8,923 nt of DNA from an uncultured Eubacteriales bacterium. GTDB lineage: Bacteria; Bacillota; Clostridia; Oscillospirales; Oscillospiraceae. The stretch is taken from assembly GCA_902461475.1 (NCBI GenBank), contig CABPXX010000038.1, positions 1-8,923 of the forward strand. Direction: 5' to 3'. Below, one piece after another: positions 161 through 7,507 of the stretch (its first letter is position 1; the number at the start of each line of letters is the position of its first letter). The translations under genes and the position numbers were made by a program. The notes under the pieces were generated by a model. That model did no database searches and had not been told where the DNA came from. It saw nothing but the letters and a program-made list of their open reading frames with translations.

Positions 161-1639
161 TTAACTTGCCAGAAGCACCAGCGAAATACCATAGAGTACA
201 TAGTCCACGCATGGGATAGCCACGCTGTTGCCCAACGCTTTATATCGTGCGGAGTCTGAAGCGCCGGGGATCGCTGTCCAGCCGTCGGGGAAGCCTTGGA
301 GCCGCTCGCATTCCAGAGGGGTCAGGCGGCGGATGAGTCTGAGGCGGTGTGTATCATCATCTAGCACCAGATCCGTAGCATCCTTGTGCTGACGGGCACT
401 TTGGGTGCTGACAACTGCCCCGTCTTTGAACACGTCCACTCGCTGTCTACTGAATACCGCATGATGGTCCGTTGCGGTGAGTGTGTAGGCAATGTCCTCC
501 TGATAACCAATGCCATTCCCGCCGTTTTGGGGCTGACGGTCTATGGCATTGCCGGTGATACAGAATACGGGTTCCTGCTCCACCAATGGCACATTGTTGC
601 CACCAGTACCGTATCTGGCGGACATGGTGGGGGCCACCGCATGAGGGCCGGTGTAGCGGGAGTCGATGCCGTGGTTCTCGTAGACCAGAGGCTGGTGCCC
701 ATGTTCCTGGGCCCGGAGTGTGGCTGTCACATCCATGCTGCACCCTATGACGCTGCCACCCTGGTCGTTGAGGCATAAAACCGACGGCATACAGTTGCCG
801 CCGGCGCTGCCCTTCAGCGTGGGGGCGAGTTCTTCGCCATAGCCGATGCCTCCAGCTGATGCTCCGGCTCCAGCGGAGAAACCGGCAATAAAGGTCTGCT
901 TCATCCCTGGTTGCGCTCCCAATGCTCCCGCCACGTCGTGGAGATCCCGAATTTCATCTCTCTGATTGGCCGCAAATGCTATTGGCCGGAGCAGGCCATT
1001 TTGATCGGTGGACACATTATTGGTGAAAGTGTTCTGGTACTCGTCCAAACCCTCCGTATTTTCTTGGCTTGGCTGGGTGACGAAGGTTTGCATCTGCATA
1101 TTACTGGTAGCCATGAGAGCCCCAGACACTCCGTGGAGATCGATACCCTCATCTCGCTGGTTGATGTGATATGCTTTTAGTTCGGTGCCACTTCTGTCCG
1201 GGGGGATAACTCCCGACTGGATCTCTAACGCTCTCTTGAGCGGTGGTGGGAGTCCTTTTCCACGTTCAAAAGCTCGGCGGAGAATACCCAGGCAGGCTTT
1301 CCTGGTCAAATAATATTTGCTGGGAGGATTGACCTGCAAAATCTGCGACAAGGAAGATTCTTTTTCTTCTCTGGGGGACACCCCAGTATTGAGCGTCAAG
1401 GCATCGCCACGCCAGGGAGAAATCAGTTCCCAATATGATTCGCCCAGCAGATTCCCAGCGCCCGGTGTCAGGTCGAGGGACTGAAACATCACAAACTTTA
1501 ATGCGGACGATCTCTTCCAGGACGATGCGGAAGTCCTCGCCTTTTGGGGTGCCGCTGGAGAAGGCTCCGGGAACGTTTTCCCACAACAAGAATCGAGGTC
1601 GAACATGGAAATCTGCTGGGTGTCGCTGCTTTTCTGCAT
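161..1639 (-). CDS. Cytosine-C5 DNA methyltransferase, target-recognition part with motifs IX and X
   Basis: 492 residues from an ATG with AAAGGAG seven bases upstream, inside the previous gene. The first 124 residues are read from the same DNA as the end of the N-terminal ORF. This segment includes 'SLDLTPGAGNLLG' (54-66), 'SSLSQILQ' (95-102) and 'KYYLTRKACLGILRRA' (108-123), and resembles the start of proteins I recall from Firmicutes phages and elements. Residues about 155-400 form a long repetitive target-recognition region. Motif IX follows ('RRLTPLECERLQGFP', 437-451), then motif X ('ARYKALGNSVAIP', 464-476). It lacks the SAM loop, catalytic Cys and ENV, so it needs the N-terminal protein, as the beta subunit of M.AquI does. 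The methylated sequence cannot be predicted. A single joined protein made by frameshifting, or a decayed gene, are alternatives; the open frame, good ribosome site and intact motifs favour function. Confidence 0.8.
   Translation of the reverse strand: MQKSSDTQQISMFDLDSCCGKTFPEPSPAAPQKARTSASSWKRSSALKFVMFQSLDLTPGAGNLLGESYWELISPWRGDALTLNTGVSPREEKESSLSQILQVNPPSKYYLTRKACLGILRRAFERGKGLPPPLKRALEIQSGVIPPDRSGTELKAYHINQRDEGIDLHGVSGALMATSNMQMQTFVTQPSQENTEGLDEYQNTFTNNVSTDQNGLLRPIAFAANQRDEIRDLHDVAGALGAQPGMKQTFIAGFSAGAGASAGGIGYGEELAPTLKGSAGGNCMPSVLCLNDQGGSVIGCSMDVTATLRAQEHGHQPLVYENHGIDSRYTGPHAVAPTMSARYGTGGNNVPLVEQEPVFCITGNAIDRQPQNGGNGIGYQEDIAYTLTATDHHAVFSRQRVDVFKDGAVVSTQSARQHKDATDLVLDDDTHRLRLIRRLTPLECERLQGFPDGWTAIPGASDSARYKALGNSVAIPCVDYVLYGISLVLLAS
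452..1174 (-). repeat. Repeats in the target-recognition region of the methyltransferase
   Basis: Two kinds of protein repeat are visible in the 492-residue ORF. The first is a pair of about 30 residues at 156-186 and 221-250 (bases 1174-1082 and 979-890), both with NQRDE, DLH, V-x-GAL and a closing M-x-QTF-like end. The second is a set of four units, each ending in a TL or TM dipeptide: 'GIGYGEELAPTL' (264-275), 'MDVTATL' (302-308), 'PHAVAPTM' (332-339) and 'GIGYQEDIAYTL' (376-387). TL/TV dipeptides are typical of C5-methyltransferase target-recognition domains. Confidence 0.6.
1266..1271 (-). other. UUU-UGA: candidate +1 frameshift site joining the two methyltransferase ORFs
   Basis: The first ORF ends with Phe UUU and stop UGA. 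Slipping forward by one base keeps a perfect UUU pairing for the P-site tRNA and continues as Glu-Arg-Gly-Lys in the second frame, which is the +1 direction needed. This resembles the CUU-UGA shift site of release factor 2 genes. No close upstream Shine-Dalgarno-like stimulator is seen (the nearest, AGGAAAG, is more than 20 bases away), so efficient shifting is uncertain. Confidence 0.4.
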
Positions 1640-1955
1640 TTCTCATCTCCTTTACGATTCTGATTTGCTCCATAAATAAACCGGAACGTGCGCCGGAGAG
1701 ACCGGCACGCTTTCCTGCCACGGACAAATCCTGGCAGGGCGAGCCGCCGCAAATGATATCTACTGGCGGCAGCTCGGCACCGTGGAGCTTTGTAATATCC
1801 CCCACATGGATCATGTCGGGAAATCGGTGCTTGGTCACCTCCATGGGAAAGGCTTCGATTTCACTGGCCCATACAGGGATGATCCCGTTATGGACGGCAG
1901 CCAAAGGAAATCCGCCGATCCCATCAAATAAACTACCAAGGGTCAGTGTACTCAT
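1266..1955 (-). CDS. Cytosine-C5 DNA methyltransferase, N-terminal part (motifs I-VIII)
   Basis: 229 residues, starting in an ATGA overlap with the VirB6-like gene. It holds the SAM-binding and catalytic half of a C5-methyltransferase: motif I 'SLFDGIGGFPLA' (8-19), an acidic 'SEIEAF' (31-36), 'GDI' (52-54), motif IV 'GGSPCQDLS' (70-78, nucleophile Cys74), motif VI 'ENV' (126-128) and motif VIII 'QRRKR' (195-199). The target-recognition region and motifs IX and X, needed for activity, are missing; they lie in the next ORF in another frame. The split point, after motif VIII, is the same as in the known two-subunit enzyme M.AquI, whose alpha subunit has a similar length. It ends at UUU-UGA, a possible +1 shift site. 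It is probably the alpha subunit of a two-part enzyme, or the first part of a frameshift-joined one. Confidence 0.88.
   Translation of the reverse strand: MSTLTLGSLFDGIGGFPLAAVHNGIIPVWASEIEAFPMEVTKHRFPDMIHVGDITKLHGAELPPVDIICGGSPCQDLSVAGKRAGLSGARSGLFMEQIRIVKEMRNAEKQRHPADFHVRPRFLLWENVPGAFSSGTPKGEDFRIVLEEIVRIKVCDVSVPRPDTGRWESAGRIILGTDFSLAWRCLDAQYWGVPQRRKRIFLVADFAGQSSQQILFDQESLPGYSPPSF
1647..1653 (-). promoter_or_regulatory. Internal ribosome site for the second methyltransferase ORF
   Basis: AAAGGAG on the minus strand, followed by a seven-base spacer and the ATG at 1639. It lies inside the first methyltransferase gene, where it encodes part of Val-Lys-Glu-Met (101-104). It decides the start of the second ORF and argues that this ORF is translated independently rather than being a chance open frame. 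Confidence 0.75.
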
Positions 1956-4958: not shown

Positions 4959-5927
4959 TTAAGTATTTTGATTTGGTTCATGGATCAGGGTATAACGCCC
5001 CTCGTACTCGTCGGTGGGGGACAGGTGAAACATACTCAGTTGCCAATTCCTTGCCGTGTTGTAGCGGCGGGGGTCGTAGTTGGTGATGACAATTTCTTCG
5101 TACTCACTGCCTGCCTTCTGGGACATGCTGTTGGGTCGGGTGGTGTAGAAGATATAAAACTCCTTATACAGCTCCACGATATAGGGACAGTAGTTGTAGG
5201 ACACCATGACGTACCCTTCGCAATTCAGGAGGGCATCGTGGAGCCGCTGGTGATCCTCCTTTGGGAAGACCACCGCATAGCAGCCCTCTGCCTCGTAATA
5301 GGGAGGATCGCAATAGAAAAACGCACCTTTCCGGTCGTATTGGCGTACAATTTCCACGCAGTCCTTGTTTTCAATGATGACCTCCGCCAACCTGCGGGAG
5401 CATTCCCAGACCAGGTGAAAAAAGCGACGGATGTCGCAGGTTTTTCCTGCAAAGGACTTGGCCCCGCCACTGAAGCTGTATCGGATAAGCTTGAAGTAGT
5501 CTGCGGCCCGGCGGACGTCTCCACGAGGAGCCCTCTCCAGCATCATTCTGCGGATGGCCTCTCCATCAGGCGGCTCCAGATATCGCTGGGTCAGCTCCAT
5601 CTCTTGGCTGAGATAATCGTCGGTGAATTCTTCCTTGGAGAAGAATTTGTACAGCACATTGAAATCATCTCGGGTGTTCAGGGGCAGAAAGCCCAGCTCC
5701 AGAAGCAGGGCCATAGTTCGGTTCTTGACGCAGCAGAAGAGGTTGGTCAGGTCGCTGTTGAAGTCGTTGTATACCTCCATGCAGCCTTGTTGAATGGGAC
5801 GGTTGAGGGTTACGGTGCCGCTGCCACCAAACACGTCGATAAACCGGGAAAAATGTGGGGGAGCCAGACGGTGGATCAGCCAAAGCAGCTTGGCTTTGCC
5901 GCCCACCCATGGGATAAAGCTCTTCAA
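4959..5927 (-). CDS. D12-class adenine-N6 DNA methyltransferase (Dam-like), TTG start
   Basis: 322 residues; transfers a methyl group from S-adenosylmethionine to adenine N6 in DNA. Visible motifs: 'FIPWVGGKAKLLWLI' (4-18, the motif X region near the N-terminus, typical of the D12/alpha class), 'FIDVFGGSGTVTL' (29-41, SAM-binding motif I), and the catalytic 'DPPY' (207-210, in 'FFYCDPPYYEAEG'). The length is normal for the family. The start must lie before the WVGG motif; the only suitable codon is TTG at 5927, overlapping the upstream TGA as TTGA, with GGCGGTG seven bases before it. No restriction endonuclease lies beside it, so it is probably an orphan enzyme that protects the element from host restriction or marks its DNA. 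The recognition site cannot be read from the sequence; GATC is common in this family. Confidence 0.9.
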   Translation of the reverse strand: MKSFIPWVGGKAKLLWLIHRLAPPHFSRFIDVFGGSGTVTLNRPIQQGCMEVYNDFNSDLTNLFCCVKNRTMALLLELGFLPLNTRDDFNVLYKFFSKEEFTDDYLSQEMELTQRYLEPPDGEAIRRMMLERAPRGDVRRAADYFKLIRYSFSGGAKSFAGKTCDIRRFFHLVWECSRRLAEVIIENKDCVEIVRQYDRKGAFFYCDPPYYEAEGCYAVVFPKEDHQRLHDALLNCEGYVMVSYNYCPYIVELYKEFYIFYTTRPNSMSQKAGSEYEEIVITNYDPRRYNTARNWQLSMFHLSPTDEYEGRYTLIHEPNQNT

Positions 5928-6226
5928 TCGACGTCACCGCCAAAGGAGTCCAGAGATCGCTCCAGTCCCTCCCTGGCCAACTTCAGACCATGTTCCATGG
6001 CTCTCAACTGGCCAATGGTGGAATAGACCTCCCCGGCGGTTACGGCATAGAAGTAACCGTCTTGGCTGCTGGCAATGGGATGCCCCTTTTTGCGCAGACG
6101 GTGGACCTGTTTACGCAGTTCAGTGCCGCTGATGTGGAGTGCTGTCTCGATCTGACGGCTTTTCTGGATGTTTTTTCTGCCTTTGCACACGGCCTTCAGA
6201 TAGGCCAATACCTGTTGTTCTCGCAT
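5924..6226 (-). CDS. Small winged-helix/helix-turn-helix protein
   Basis: 100 residues from the second of two adjacent ATG codons (6229 and 6226); GGAAAGGA lies six bases before the second but only three before the first, so I chose 6226. Residues about 17-50 read as a helix-turn-helix ('SRQIETALHISGTELRKQV', 23-41, then a basic 'HRLRKKGHPI'), followed by a short beta wing with 'GYFYAVTAGE' (57-66). The C-terminal third (67-95) is a charged helix that may dimerise. Similar small proteins occur in phages and conjugative elements of Firmicutes, where they are predicted DNA-binding proteins. It is the first gene after the terminator, and its stop overlaps the start of the adenine methyltransferase gene (TTGA), so it may regulate or partner that gene. 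Target sites are unknown. Confidence 0.7.
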   Translation of the reverse strand: MREQQVLAYLKAVCKGRKNIQKSRQIETALHISGTELRKQVHRLRKKGHPIASSQDGYFYAVTAGEVYSTIGQLRAMEHGLKLAREGLERSLDSFGGDVD

Positions 6227-6240
6227 CATTGTTCCTTTCC

Positions 6241-6304
6241 GGGGCCATACCCGAACAAGGAACAACAAAAAAGCAGGAGCCGTGTCCCTTTCGGGTACGG
6301 CCCC
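6241..6304 (-). promoter_or_regulatory. Alternative hairpin competing with the terminator
   Basis: On the minus strand, GGGGCCGTACCCG (6304-6292) is complementary to CGGGTATGGCCCC (6253-6241): 13 pairs with one G-U, extendable by two A-U pairs. It uses the same 5' arm as the terminator, so the two folds exclude each other. The base of this longer hairpin abuts the GGAAAGGA ribosome site (6240-6233) of the helix-turn-helix gene. The one non-Watson-Crick position is G-U on the minus-strand RNA but A-C on the plus strand, which fits selection on the minus-strand RNA. Any regulatory role is inferred. Confidence 0.5.
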
Positions 6305-6305
6305 T
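6267..6305 (-). terminator. Rho-independent terminator after the tandem ArdA-like gene
   Basis: Read on the minus strand, AGGGGCCGT (6305-6297) pairs with ACGGCTCCT (6283-6275): nine pairs including one G-U. An inner CCC/GGG stem is capped by a GAAA tetraloop, and the hairpin is followed by GC and six T residues (6272-6267). This is a textbook intrinsic terminator, 36 bases past the stop of the upstream gene. Its 5' arm can also pair with a downstream segment (see the alternative hairpin). Confidence 0.88.
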
Positions 6306-6340
6306 GTGTGTTTTGTTTGGGAATATGAGAGGGTTACGGT

Positions 6341-7507
6341 TTACTGCATCTGCATCCCTTCCAGTTTAGGGTCAGAGGTAGGGCAGAGGAGGGGTTCGCC
6401 ATCTTCTCGCGCCACCAGCCCATAGGGGGTCAGGACTGCATTGGCATGATTCAGGATGTCTCTGCCGTAGGCATTGAGATTGACGTGCTCTTGCAGCATG
6501 GAAAGGGTTTGCTCATCCAAGATGGTGTGCAGCTTCTGGAGTGCCACCTCCTTGGGACTGCGCTGGTCGGGCTGGAGCAGGTAGTCGTCCAGATTTTCCG
6601 CAATGCGAGCGGCGGCGACGACCTCGTGGCAGTCGGTGGCAAGGATGACTGCTTTGAGTTTGGTGAGCTGTCCATACCGCTCCAGGCATTTGATGGTCTC
6701 TGCCAGCTGATTCAGATCCTGGATGTCGTTGCACTCCAGGTTCTCCAGCAGATCGGGAATGGCGCTGTCCTCGGCCCAGAAGACCACCTGGTCCCAGGAA
6801 GCAGATTCGCCCAGCTCCTCCAGAACACGGGACAGCTGGCTCTGTGTGGCGGGGAGTTCCAGAGTGACCTTGGGTTCCTGCTGATTAGAACCTTTGGCCA
6901 CCAGCATGCGAATGGCGTAAGAGGGAGGCTTGGGAACTACGTCCAGGCTGTCATGTACCTGCTTGAGGTCTTCATGCTGGGTCACATAGCCATGGCTGAC
7001 AAAGACACCGCCCTCCTCAAATCTGGATTTTCTGCCGAGCATATCAAAGTCCAGATACTCAAAGATGGAGTCGGGAACTTTTTCAAGTGCAGGGATAAAA
7101 TCGTTCTCGGCATAGAATCTGCCCAGCTGCTCATCCGTTGTGGCGTTGACCACATGGCAGCAGTCTGTGCTGTAGGCCAGATCCAGCAGGGTGGAGAGAG
7201 GGATGGGGCCATGGTCTTTGGCTGCTTCCATCTGGACCAGTCCTTCGAAAGCGGCCTTTTCCATGTCACTCAGCCCCTCCAGCCTGGTTAGCAGGGCGTT
7301 GAGCTGGTAGAGGTCACAGTCCGAGCTCAGATGGTCATGGAGAAAGGGAAAGGCTCCCGGATGGAGCAGTTCCAGGTCCGGTTTTTCACCGGGGGCCATT
7401 TGGAGCTTATCCATGGCATCCTGGAGCTGATAGTAGGTAGCCGGAAGCTCCAGGCAGCAGTATTGATTATTTTTCCCGTAGAGCGCAATGCAGAACGCAT
7501 TATCCAA
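6341..7507 (-). CDS. Tandem ArdA-like protein (two modules), TTG start
   Basis: 388 residues. The start is a TTG with GGAGG eight bases upstream, overlapping the previous gene by 8 bases; no ATG has suitable spacing. Two copies of one module are visible. Copy 1 has '[17 protein letters not shown]' (19-35), a '[14 protein letters not shown]' helix (66-79), 'STDCCHVV' (113-120), and '[10 protein letters not shown]' then '[10 protein letters not shown]' (151-175). Copy 2 has '[17 protein letters not shown]' (216-232), '[15 protein letters not shown]' (264-278), 'ATDCHEVV' (290-297), and 'NLNAYGRD' then 'AVLTPYGLV' (343-365). The order helix, acidic TDC segment, Y/F-x-x-x-GR motif and terminal strand matches ArdA of Tn916-like elements. 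ArdA dimers mimic about 40 bp of DNA and inhibit type I restriction enzymes; here two modules may act as a built-in pseudo-dimer (inference). A strong terminator follows, so this gene probably ends its transcript. Confidence 0.7.

Follow-up and report, generated by a model that had tools for sequence, protein, structure and literature searches.

An overlapping +1 reading frame conserved in phage-type DNA C5-cytosine methyltransferase genes, and its fused and decoupled forms

Introduction

Among the DNA C5-cytosine methyltransferases, M.EcoHK31I has a second polypeptide that is encoded in an alternative frame within the first. It is an enzyme of two polypeptides, whose small chain carries only motif IX (PMC3404938). 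M.AquI is a C5-methyltransferase made from two ORFs that are parted between motifs VIII and IX, and the passage of its source that deals with the enzyme makes no mention of an extra domain on the second chain. Dmt of phage P1 is a continuous, bifunctional enzyme that also has adenine methyltransferase activity. To our knowledge, few long overlapping genes have been established in double-stranded DNA phages. Overprinting of an enzyme gene is exemplified by the tymoviruses, in which p69 is overprinted on the replicase (PMC8227390). Outside viruses, the standard annotation software does not allow long overlaps between genes (PMC8665328).

In this paper, we deal with a locus in an 8,923-nucleotide stretch of DNA from an uncultured Eubacteriales bacterium (contig CABPXX010000038.1), referred to throughout as the window, which shares something with each of these systems. 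As in M.AquI, a C5-methyltransferase is encoded by two ORFs parted between motifs VIII and IX, but the window ORFs have 374 bases in common, read in different frames, and the second of them begins with an additional domain, B, for which the M.AquI passage offers no counterpart. The likeness to M.EcoHK31I lies in the two polypeptides; however, the motifs are divided differently, since ORF B of the window holds the target-recognition region together with motifs IX and X after the B domain, whereas the B of most relatives is without any methyltransferase motif. The C5 part of P1 Dmt has B in its +1 frame as well, although there B is embedded in a continuous gene. With the tymovirus pair, the locus shares a second frame placed in an older enzyme gene, but B spans phages whose hosts belong to several bacterial phyla and is also found fused, decoupled and in frame. 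In the open-licence PMC literature, searched by title or the start of the abstract, we found no description of the overlap.

The window locus

ORF A is found at positions 1266..1955 of the minus strand and encodes 229 amino acids. It represents the N-terminal part of a C5-methyltransferase, with motifs I-VIII (residues FDGIGGF, SPCQ, ENV and QRRKR among them), and ends early. ORF B (161..1639, minus strand, 492 amino acids) lies in the +1 frame relative to ORF A and consists of the B domain, the target-recognition region and motifs IX-X. Its start ATG, read from the sequence, is at 1637..1639 (minus strand) and is preceded by a ribosome-binding site, AAAGGAG, at 1647..1653 (minus strand), which is 7 nt 5' of the ATG and within ORF A. 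Over the 374 bases of the double-coding stretch (1266..1639, minus strand), motifs VI-VIII of A are encoded in one frame and residues 1-124 of ORF B in the other. The preliminary description of this DNA had reported exactly this arrangement, and its coordinates hold. The conserved core of B, residues 97-139 (1223..1351, minus strand), coincides with confidently predicted helices, follows the pattern LSQIL..KYYL..KACLGILRRA..RGK.LP..L..AL, and has its 3' end beyond the ORF A stop.

The Pfam family PF00145 matches both ORFs above its cut-off, in ORF A over residues 6-147 (whole-protein E 8.6e-33) and in ORF B over the C-terminal residues 395-482 (E 1e-10; 194..457, minus strand), which correspond to motifs IX and X. 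The enzyme is therefore split after motif VIII, and the earlier comparison with the division of M.AquI stands. The family model TIGR00675 gives 106 bits with ORF A, above its cut-off of 100.65, and 41.5 bits, below it, with ORF B alone. By these matches, both halves belong to the C5 cytosine DNA methyltransferases, and such activity is predicted. In relation to the continuous methyltransferase of a close relative (L001), window A is the first part, and residues 197-391 of ORF B correspond to residues 249-490 (62%). For residues 1-140 of ORF B, matches at E <= 1e-3 were returned for 3528 database proteins, the best identity being 99% among the 120 matches listed.

Upstream of A, the minus strand encodes TrbL_5, DUF3852 (weakly TrbC-like), SpoVG, DUF3849, a D12 adenine methyltransferase, an ArdA-like protein and DUF4314, and the window looks like a portion of an integrative conjugative element, judging from this gene content. 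The D12 adenine methyltransferase and the ArdA-like antirestriction protein, at positions 4959-7504 of the minus strand, share their element with the C5-methyltransferase, and together the three are likely to form an anti-restriction cluster.

Distribution of the embedded frame

In the window, B is the extra segment at the start of ORF B; in most relatives it is a whole ORF of about 130-160 codons, placed at +1 within a continuous methyltransferase gene. A tblastn search with the window segment gave 43 matching records among 50,697 from phages and 10 among 72,556 from plasmids, and a search of the same number of phage records with B matched 140. Twelve matching loci (L001-L012) were inspected, and in 11 of these B lies at +1 relative to a methyltransferase ORF, which continues past it, with L002 split like the window. 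Two sets of 80 IMG/VR loci each were then chosen by the methyltransferase alone, using either window ORF A (this set and its kin being termed Bacillota-type) or the methyltransferase of a Sinorhizobium phage as the query. B is present in the +1 frame of 79/80 and 80/80 loci, respectively, and the sole exception of the 160, L014, is of the decoupled type described below and has B downstream. In the 79 loci of the first set B is usually about 130 codons long, with an ATG that is most often 29 nt 5' of the ENVPGAF codons.

Taken together, 451 B matches were placed relative to an A frame: 424 are at offset +1 and none at any other offset, while the 27 without an overlapping A comprise 25 decoupled loci, one in-frame case (L273) and one cut by the end of its contig (L242). 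Stops fall within 19 of the 451 matches, in 12 only near the end of the match, where B has its own stop, and internally in seven, namely four ghosts in decoupled genes, L402, L270 and ZF40. In L270 (G014:C24), which has two internal stops in its B match, the A frame also contains stops, and this is a broken copy.

The most familiar carrier is phage P1, where the +1 frame of dmt scores 76.5 bits for B compared with a highest value of 29.3 in 200 permutations of the gene (see below), and B is found in 81/81 P1-type loci (P1 and 80 from IMG/VR), one of them with a stop inside the match. Together with the 159 of 160 IMG/VR loci, this upholds the earlier remark that phage proteins contain similar segments. 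Scores for the +1 frame are comparable in Vibrio phage CP-T1 (90), Enterobacter phage CobraSix (96), Pseudomonas phage TC7 (81), Akkermansia phage Chantilly (84) and Morganella phage vB_Mm5 (77), and mycobacteriophages Phoebus and Dove, which lie outside the permutation-tested set, have a +1 B with 159 open codons. The hosts of phages with B are thus spread over several phyla, including those of Akkermansia and Mycobacterium. B is weak in CcrColossus (38 bits, null maximum 27) and phiCbK (27 bits, null maximum 21), its frame has two stops in ZF40, and in Vibrio phage 1.270.B (L449) no B score exceeds the permutations and the +1 frame is open for 51 codons only; the C5-methyltransferase annotated in L449 is itself short or truncated, at 492 nt. 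Among genomes, a B match is present in 27 of 99 around G001, a count that includes weak matches from in-frame families or from a second, Dcm-like subfamily, and in 20 of 398 across its phylum.

The annotation of P1 (AF234172) has dmt and no other gene over the B stretch, where the predicted B product would begin at about position 66728 (or 66713) and finish at 67201. In Escherichia phage vB_EcoM-813R1 (L603, P1-type), a "hypothetical protein" annotated at 1282-1773 lies in the B frame; a second hypothetical protein adjoins it, and no gene named dmt appears within the stretch shown. Four of the inspected loci (L003, L005-L007) have a gene for an adenine-specific or other DNA methyltransferase directly 5' of the C5-methyltransferase, and in P1 and a Pantoea phage-plasmid the adenine and C5 kinds are combined in one protein.

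The start signals of B were compared with those of permuted genes. Within the open B frame, 93% of Bacillota-type loci (n=183) have an ATG (58% when permuted), and in 91% (24%) this is accompanied by a Shine-Dalgarno match of at least 4, which makes up the full signal. For other phages (n=129) the corresponding values are 99% (71%) and 48% (12%), and independent initiation is less clear in this second group since only 48% have the full signal.

Selection on the +1 frame

Conservation of the second frame was measured against a null in which synonymous codons were permuted within each gene, so that A stays the same both as a protein and in its codon use, and the +1 frame was scored with B profiles. 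A profile of 26 Bacillota-type B sequences gives 68-109 bits in 84/84 distant methyltransferase genes, some of them near-copies, and every one beats each of its own 100 permutations, the highest of which reaches 54 bits. In the reverse test, a profile built from the distant set only was applied to 89 Bacillota-type genes; the median score is 86 bits, and 88 of the genes exceed all 100 permutations, the exception again being L014. The chance that the +1 frame is stop-free over the B match under permutation has a median of 0.045 per gene (88 genes). The second frame is open and conserved beyond the demands of the first.

The same constraint is visible in the methyltransferase frame. Among 301 unique genes, compared as embedded, fused and other sets in four divergence classes with pairs that are not independent, the ratio of third- to first-position divergence in A is 2.1-8.7 upstream of the overlap and 0.8-2.4 inside it. 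Third-position change inside the overlap amounts to 37-75% of the upstream value, while first-position change mostly rises. In the P1-type genes (66 unique of 81), the ratio is 0.6-1.2 inside and 2.7-4.2 outside. Synonymous change in the methyltransferase frame is suppressed over the overlap, and the suggested conservation of the double coding is borne out by both kinds of test.

Fused and decoupled forms

In all, 401 loci were classified, with 43 rows skipped, as embedded (329), fused in the manner of the window (50) or decoupled (22). A tree of 107 A proteins, from 45 of the embedded, 43 of the fused and 16 of the decoupled loci together with three outgroup rows, has the fused label changing at least nine times, seven of which are forced by well-supported branches, bearing in mind that the outgroup is not clean, one other row having joined it, and that the changes could include reversals. 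Fused loci sit beside embedded relatives at several places in the tree, and the nearest row to the window is Pseudoflavonifractor sp. An85, at 95% identity. Most relatives have B embedded, as does the outgroup, itself not clean; the fusion of B to the C-terminal half of the methyltransferase is derived and seems to be recurrent. The preliminary description had proposed that the second subunit gained an overprinted N-terminal extension; the order is the reverse, with B the older element, free-standing in continuous genes, and the C-terminal half joined on to it.

The split form is common to many separate assemblies and forms a deep clade, so it is not an assembly error. It had been anticipated that close relatives with one continuous ORF would point to a recent frameshift or such an error. 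Close relatives of this kind do exist (L001, L227-L229 and L232), but all of them keep the +1 frame, so the split is derived and is not a mere frameshift error.

The decoupled form comprises a single clade (support 100/99), nested within fused relatives, of 25 loci, some of which are near-copies. In these, A runs to motif VIII, and its +1 frame contains a ghost of B that scores 5-31 bits and, in 20 loci of the 25, is interrupted by stops, while a separate downstream ORF consists of B and the methyltransferase C-terminal half. An A profile run over the decoupled B finds nothing above threshold, a 2-bit remnant in L213 excepted. As both stretches resemble B, the overlap was presumably duplicated. 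For the decoupled B, the median dN/dS (NG86) is 0.18 over 27 non-independent pairs with dS of 0.05-1.5, from 19 unique sequences, and divergence at the first, second and third codon positions is 0.29, 0.22 and 0.58. Amino acids are thus kept while third positions vary, which indicates selection on the B protein and rules out an RNA or DNA signal as the object of the conservation. Purifying selection on B is visible both in the suppressed synonymous change of A and at the protein level where B stands alone.

In-frame domains, structure and the proposed partner role

Two other families of C5-methyltransferases end in a domain, read in frame with the enzyme, that is homologous to B, with hhalign probabilities of 97.8% (E 1.2e-12) and 96.8% (E 2.1e-10). 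Rows were obtained for 58 of 60 loci in a comparison of the two arrangements: 12 have B in frame, with an embedded remnant of at most 16 bits; 22 have B embedded (90-146 bits) and none in frame; and 24, all more distant methyltransferases, have neither. These B-less enzymes, and the weak, broken or missing B of some phages, indicate that B is dispensable for some such methyltransferases.

The AlphaFold models of B are confident mainly in the C-terminal helices, with a pTM of 0.32 for the window form and 0.41 for the decoupled form. A sequence search of the PDB with B returned no match at E <= 1, and Foldseek searches of the PDB with the two models returned none at E <= 0.001. Pfam, searched with 28 B sequences, gave three families with one member each and a best E of only 0.027. 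In BFVD, the one match to the B model at E <= 0.001 is a phage cytosine methyltransferase; the next, an 81-residue protein of Mycobacterium phage Thibault (E 0.0018), pointed to the mycobacteriophage +1 B genes. The PHROG family phrog_16143 (139 positions), named "DNA methyltransferase", matches 21 of the 28 B sequences at E <= 0.01, so B-like ORFs have probably been called in some phage genomes. With model confidence limited and no PDB relative found by sequence or fold, the role of B rests on gene association: every context found, whether embedded, fused to the C-terminal half or in frame at the C-terminus, is a C5-methyltransferase, and B is on this basis taken to be a methyltransferase partner that probably binds the enzyme.

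Interpretation

What is conserved at +1 within phage-type C5-methyltransferase genes is the amino-acid sequence of B. The explanation that we favor, with a probability of around 0.75, is that these genes contain an old gene within a gene, in which B is under purifying selection and has a start of its own, from which a small protein that partners the methyltransferase is likely to be translated, and that the fusion in the window has turned this pair into an enzyme of two subunits, A and B. Internal initiation would produce B alongside the methyltransferase from one mRNA, and the B protein would bind the enzyme. Loss of the frame boundary could then fuse B to the C-terminal half without harm and would yield the two-subunit enzyme of the window, in which A, with motifs I-VIII, and B, with target recognition and motifs IX and X, may come together in the manner of M.AquI, the B domain serving as a docking or regulatory module. 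B is probably translated in all of the forms.

We lean, with rather less assurance, towards a broader view, in which B is an unrecognised family that was overprinted before the gene came to be shared among the phages of Bacillota, Pseudomonadota, Verrucomicrobiota and Actinomycetota, acts as an obligatory or regulatory partner, and has escaped the overlap at least twice. If so, the two escapes would be the separate stretch of the decoupled clade and relocation as an in-frame C-terminal domain, a hidden gene would be present even in phage P1, and the family would offer a natural experiment on how overlapping genes form and come apart. DNA cytosine methyltransferases would also gain a new accessory protein, and the phage methyltransferase genes that have already been cloned would contain an unnoticed second gene. 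The importance of the system lies in a widespread overlapping pair, conserved at the protein level and present in a textbook phage, that can be seen at several stages, embedded, fused, decoupled with a decaying copy and in frame, so that the persistence and separation of overprinted genes become directly testable.

Of the alternatives, the one that retains most weight is that B is a real protein with an unrelated job, such as anti-restriction, packaging or host take-over, that merely shares its DNA with the methyltransferase. Overprinted viral proteins often have unrelated accessory roles, silencing suppressors among them (PMC8227390), and an ArdA-like protein is encoded in the element of the window; that every context of B found is a C5-methyltransferase, in-frame fusions in other families included, makes this unlikely, although it speaks for association and not for binding. 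Decidedly less probable is programmed +1 frameshifting in place of internal initiation, by which an A-B fusion would be made and, in the window, one full-length enzyme. B does lie at +1 of A throughout, and a shift near the end of A in the window would put all motifs in one chain, yet the ATG and Shine-Dalgarno sequence of B are kept far upstream of that end, and in the continuous forms a shift would truncate the enzyme.

That the +1 conservation is a by-product of a conserved methyltransferase protein or of its codon usage has next to no chance of being correct, since, even though motif VIII (QRRKRIFLVADF) dictates many +1 residues and permuted copies reach 54 bits, or 72 bits for one gene in another permutation test, the real scores top all permutations in all but one gene, B is conserved without an overlapping methyltransferase frame at a dN/dS that is not near 1, B exists as an in-frame domain in other families, and methyltransferases of the same superfamily manage without it. 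The reading of the locus as an ordinary C5-methyltransferase hit by a recent frameshift or an assembly error, with a meaningless +1 frame, has the continuous close relatives on its side and can be dismissed with equal firmness, as the split is not confined to one assembly or shallow twig and the new frame is under selection, being kept across phages above all permutations with synonymous change suppressed over the overlap.

A second, Dcm-like subfamily

A long open +1 frame, of 143-202 codons, is also found in a Dcm-like subfamily of C5-methyltransferases (L274, L275, L277, L278, L591 and L594-L598), where it ends in ..LSDILIPDAPEKYYLS.. Permutation runs gave rows for 11 of 14 and 6 of 7 loci, and 10 of 11 genes top all 200 permutations at 18-34 bits, L277 and L278 being alike and L599 falling short. 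Given this subfamily, B-like overprinting may be older still. The ratio of third- to first-position divergence in the Dcm-like genes is 2.6 upstream of the overlap, 2.0 and 1.4 in its two halves, and 2.0 downstream (51 pairs).
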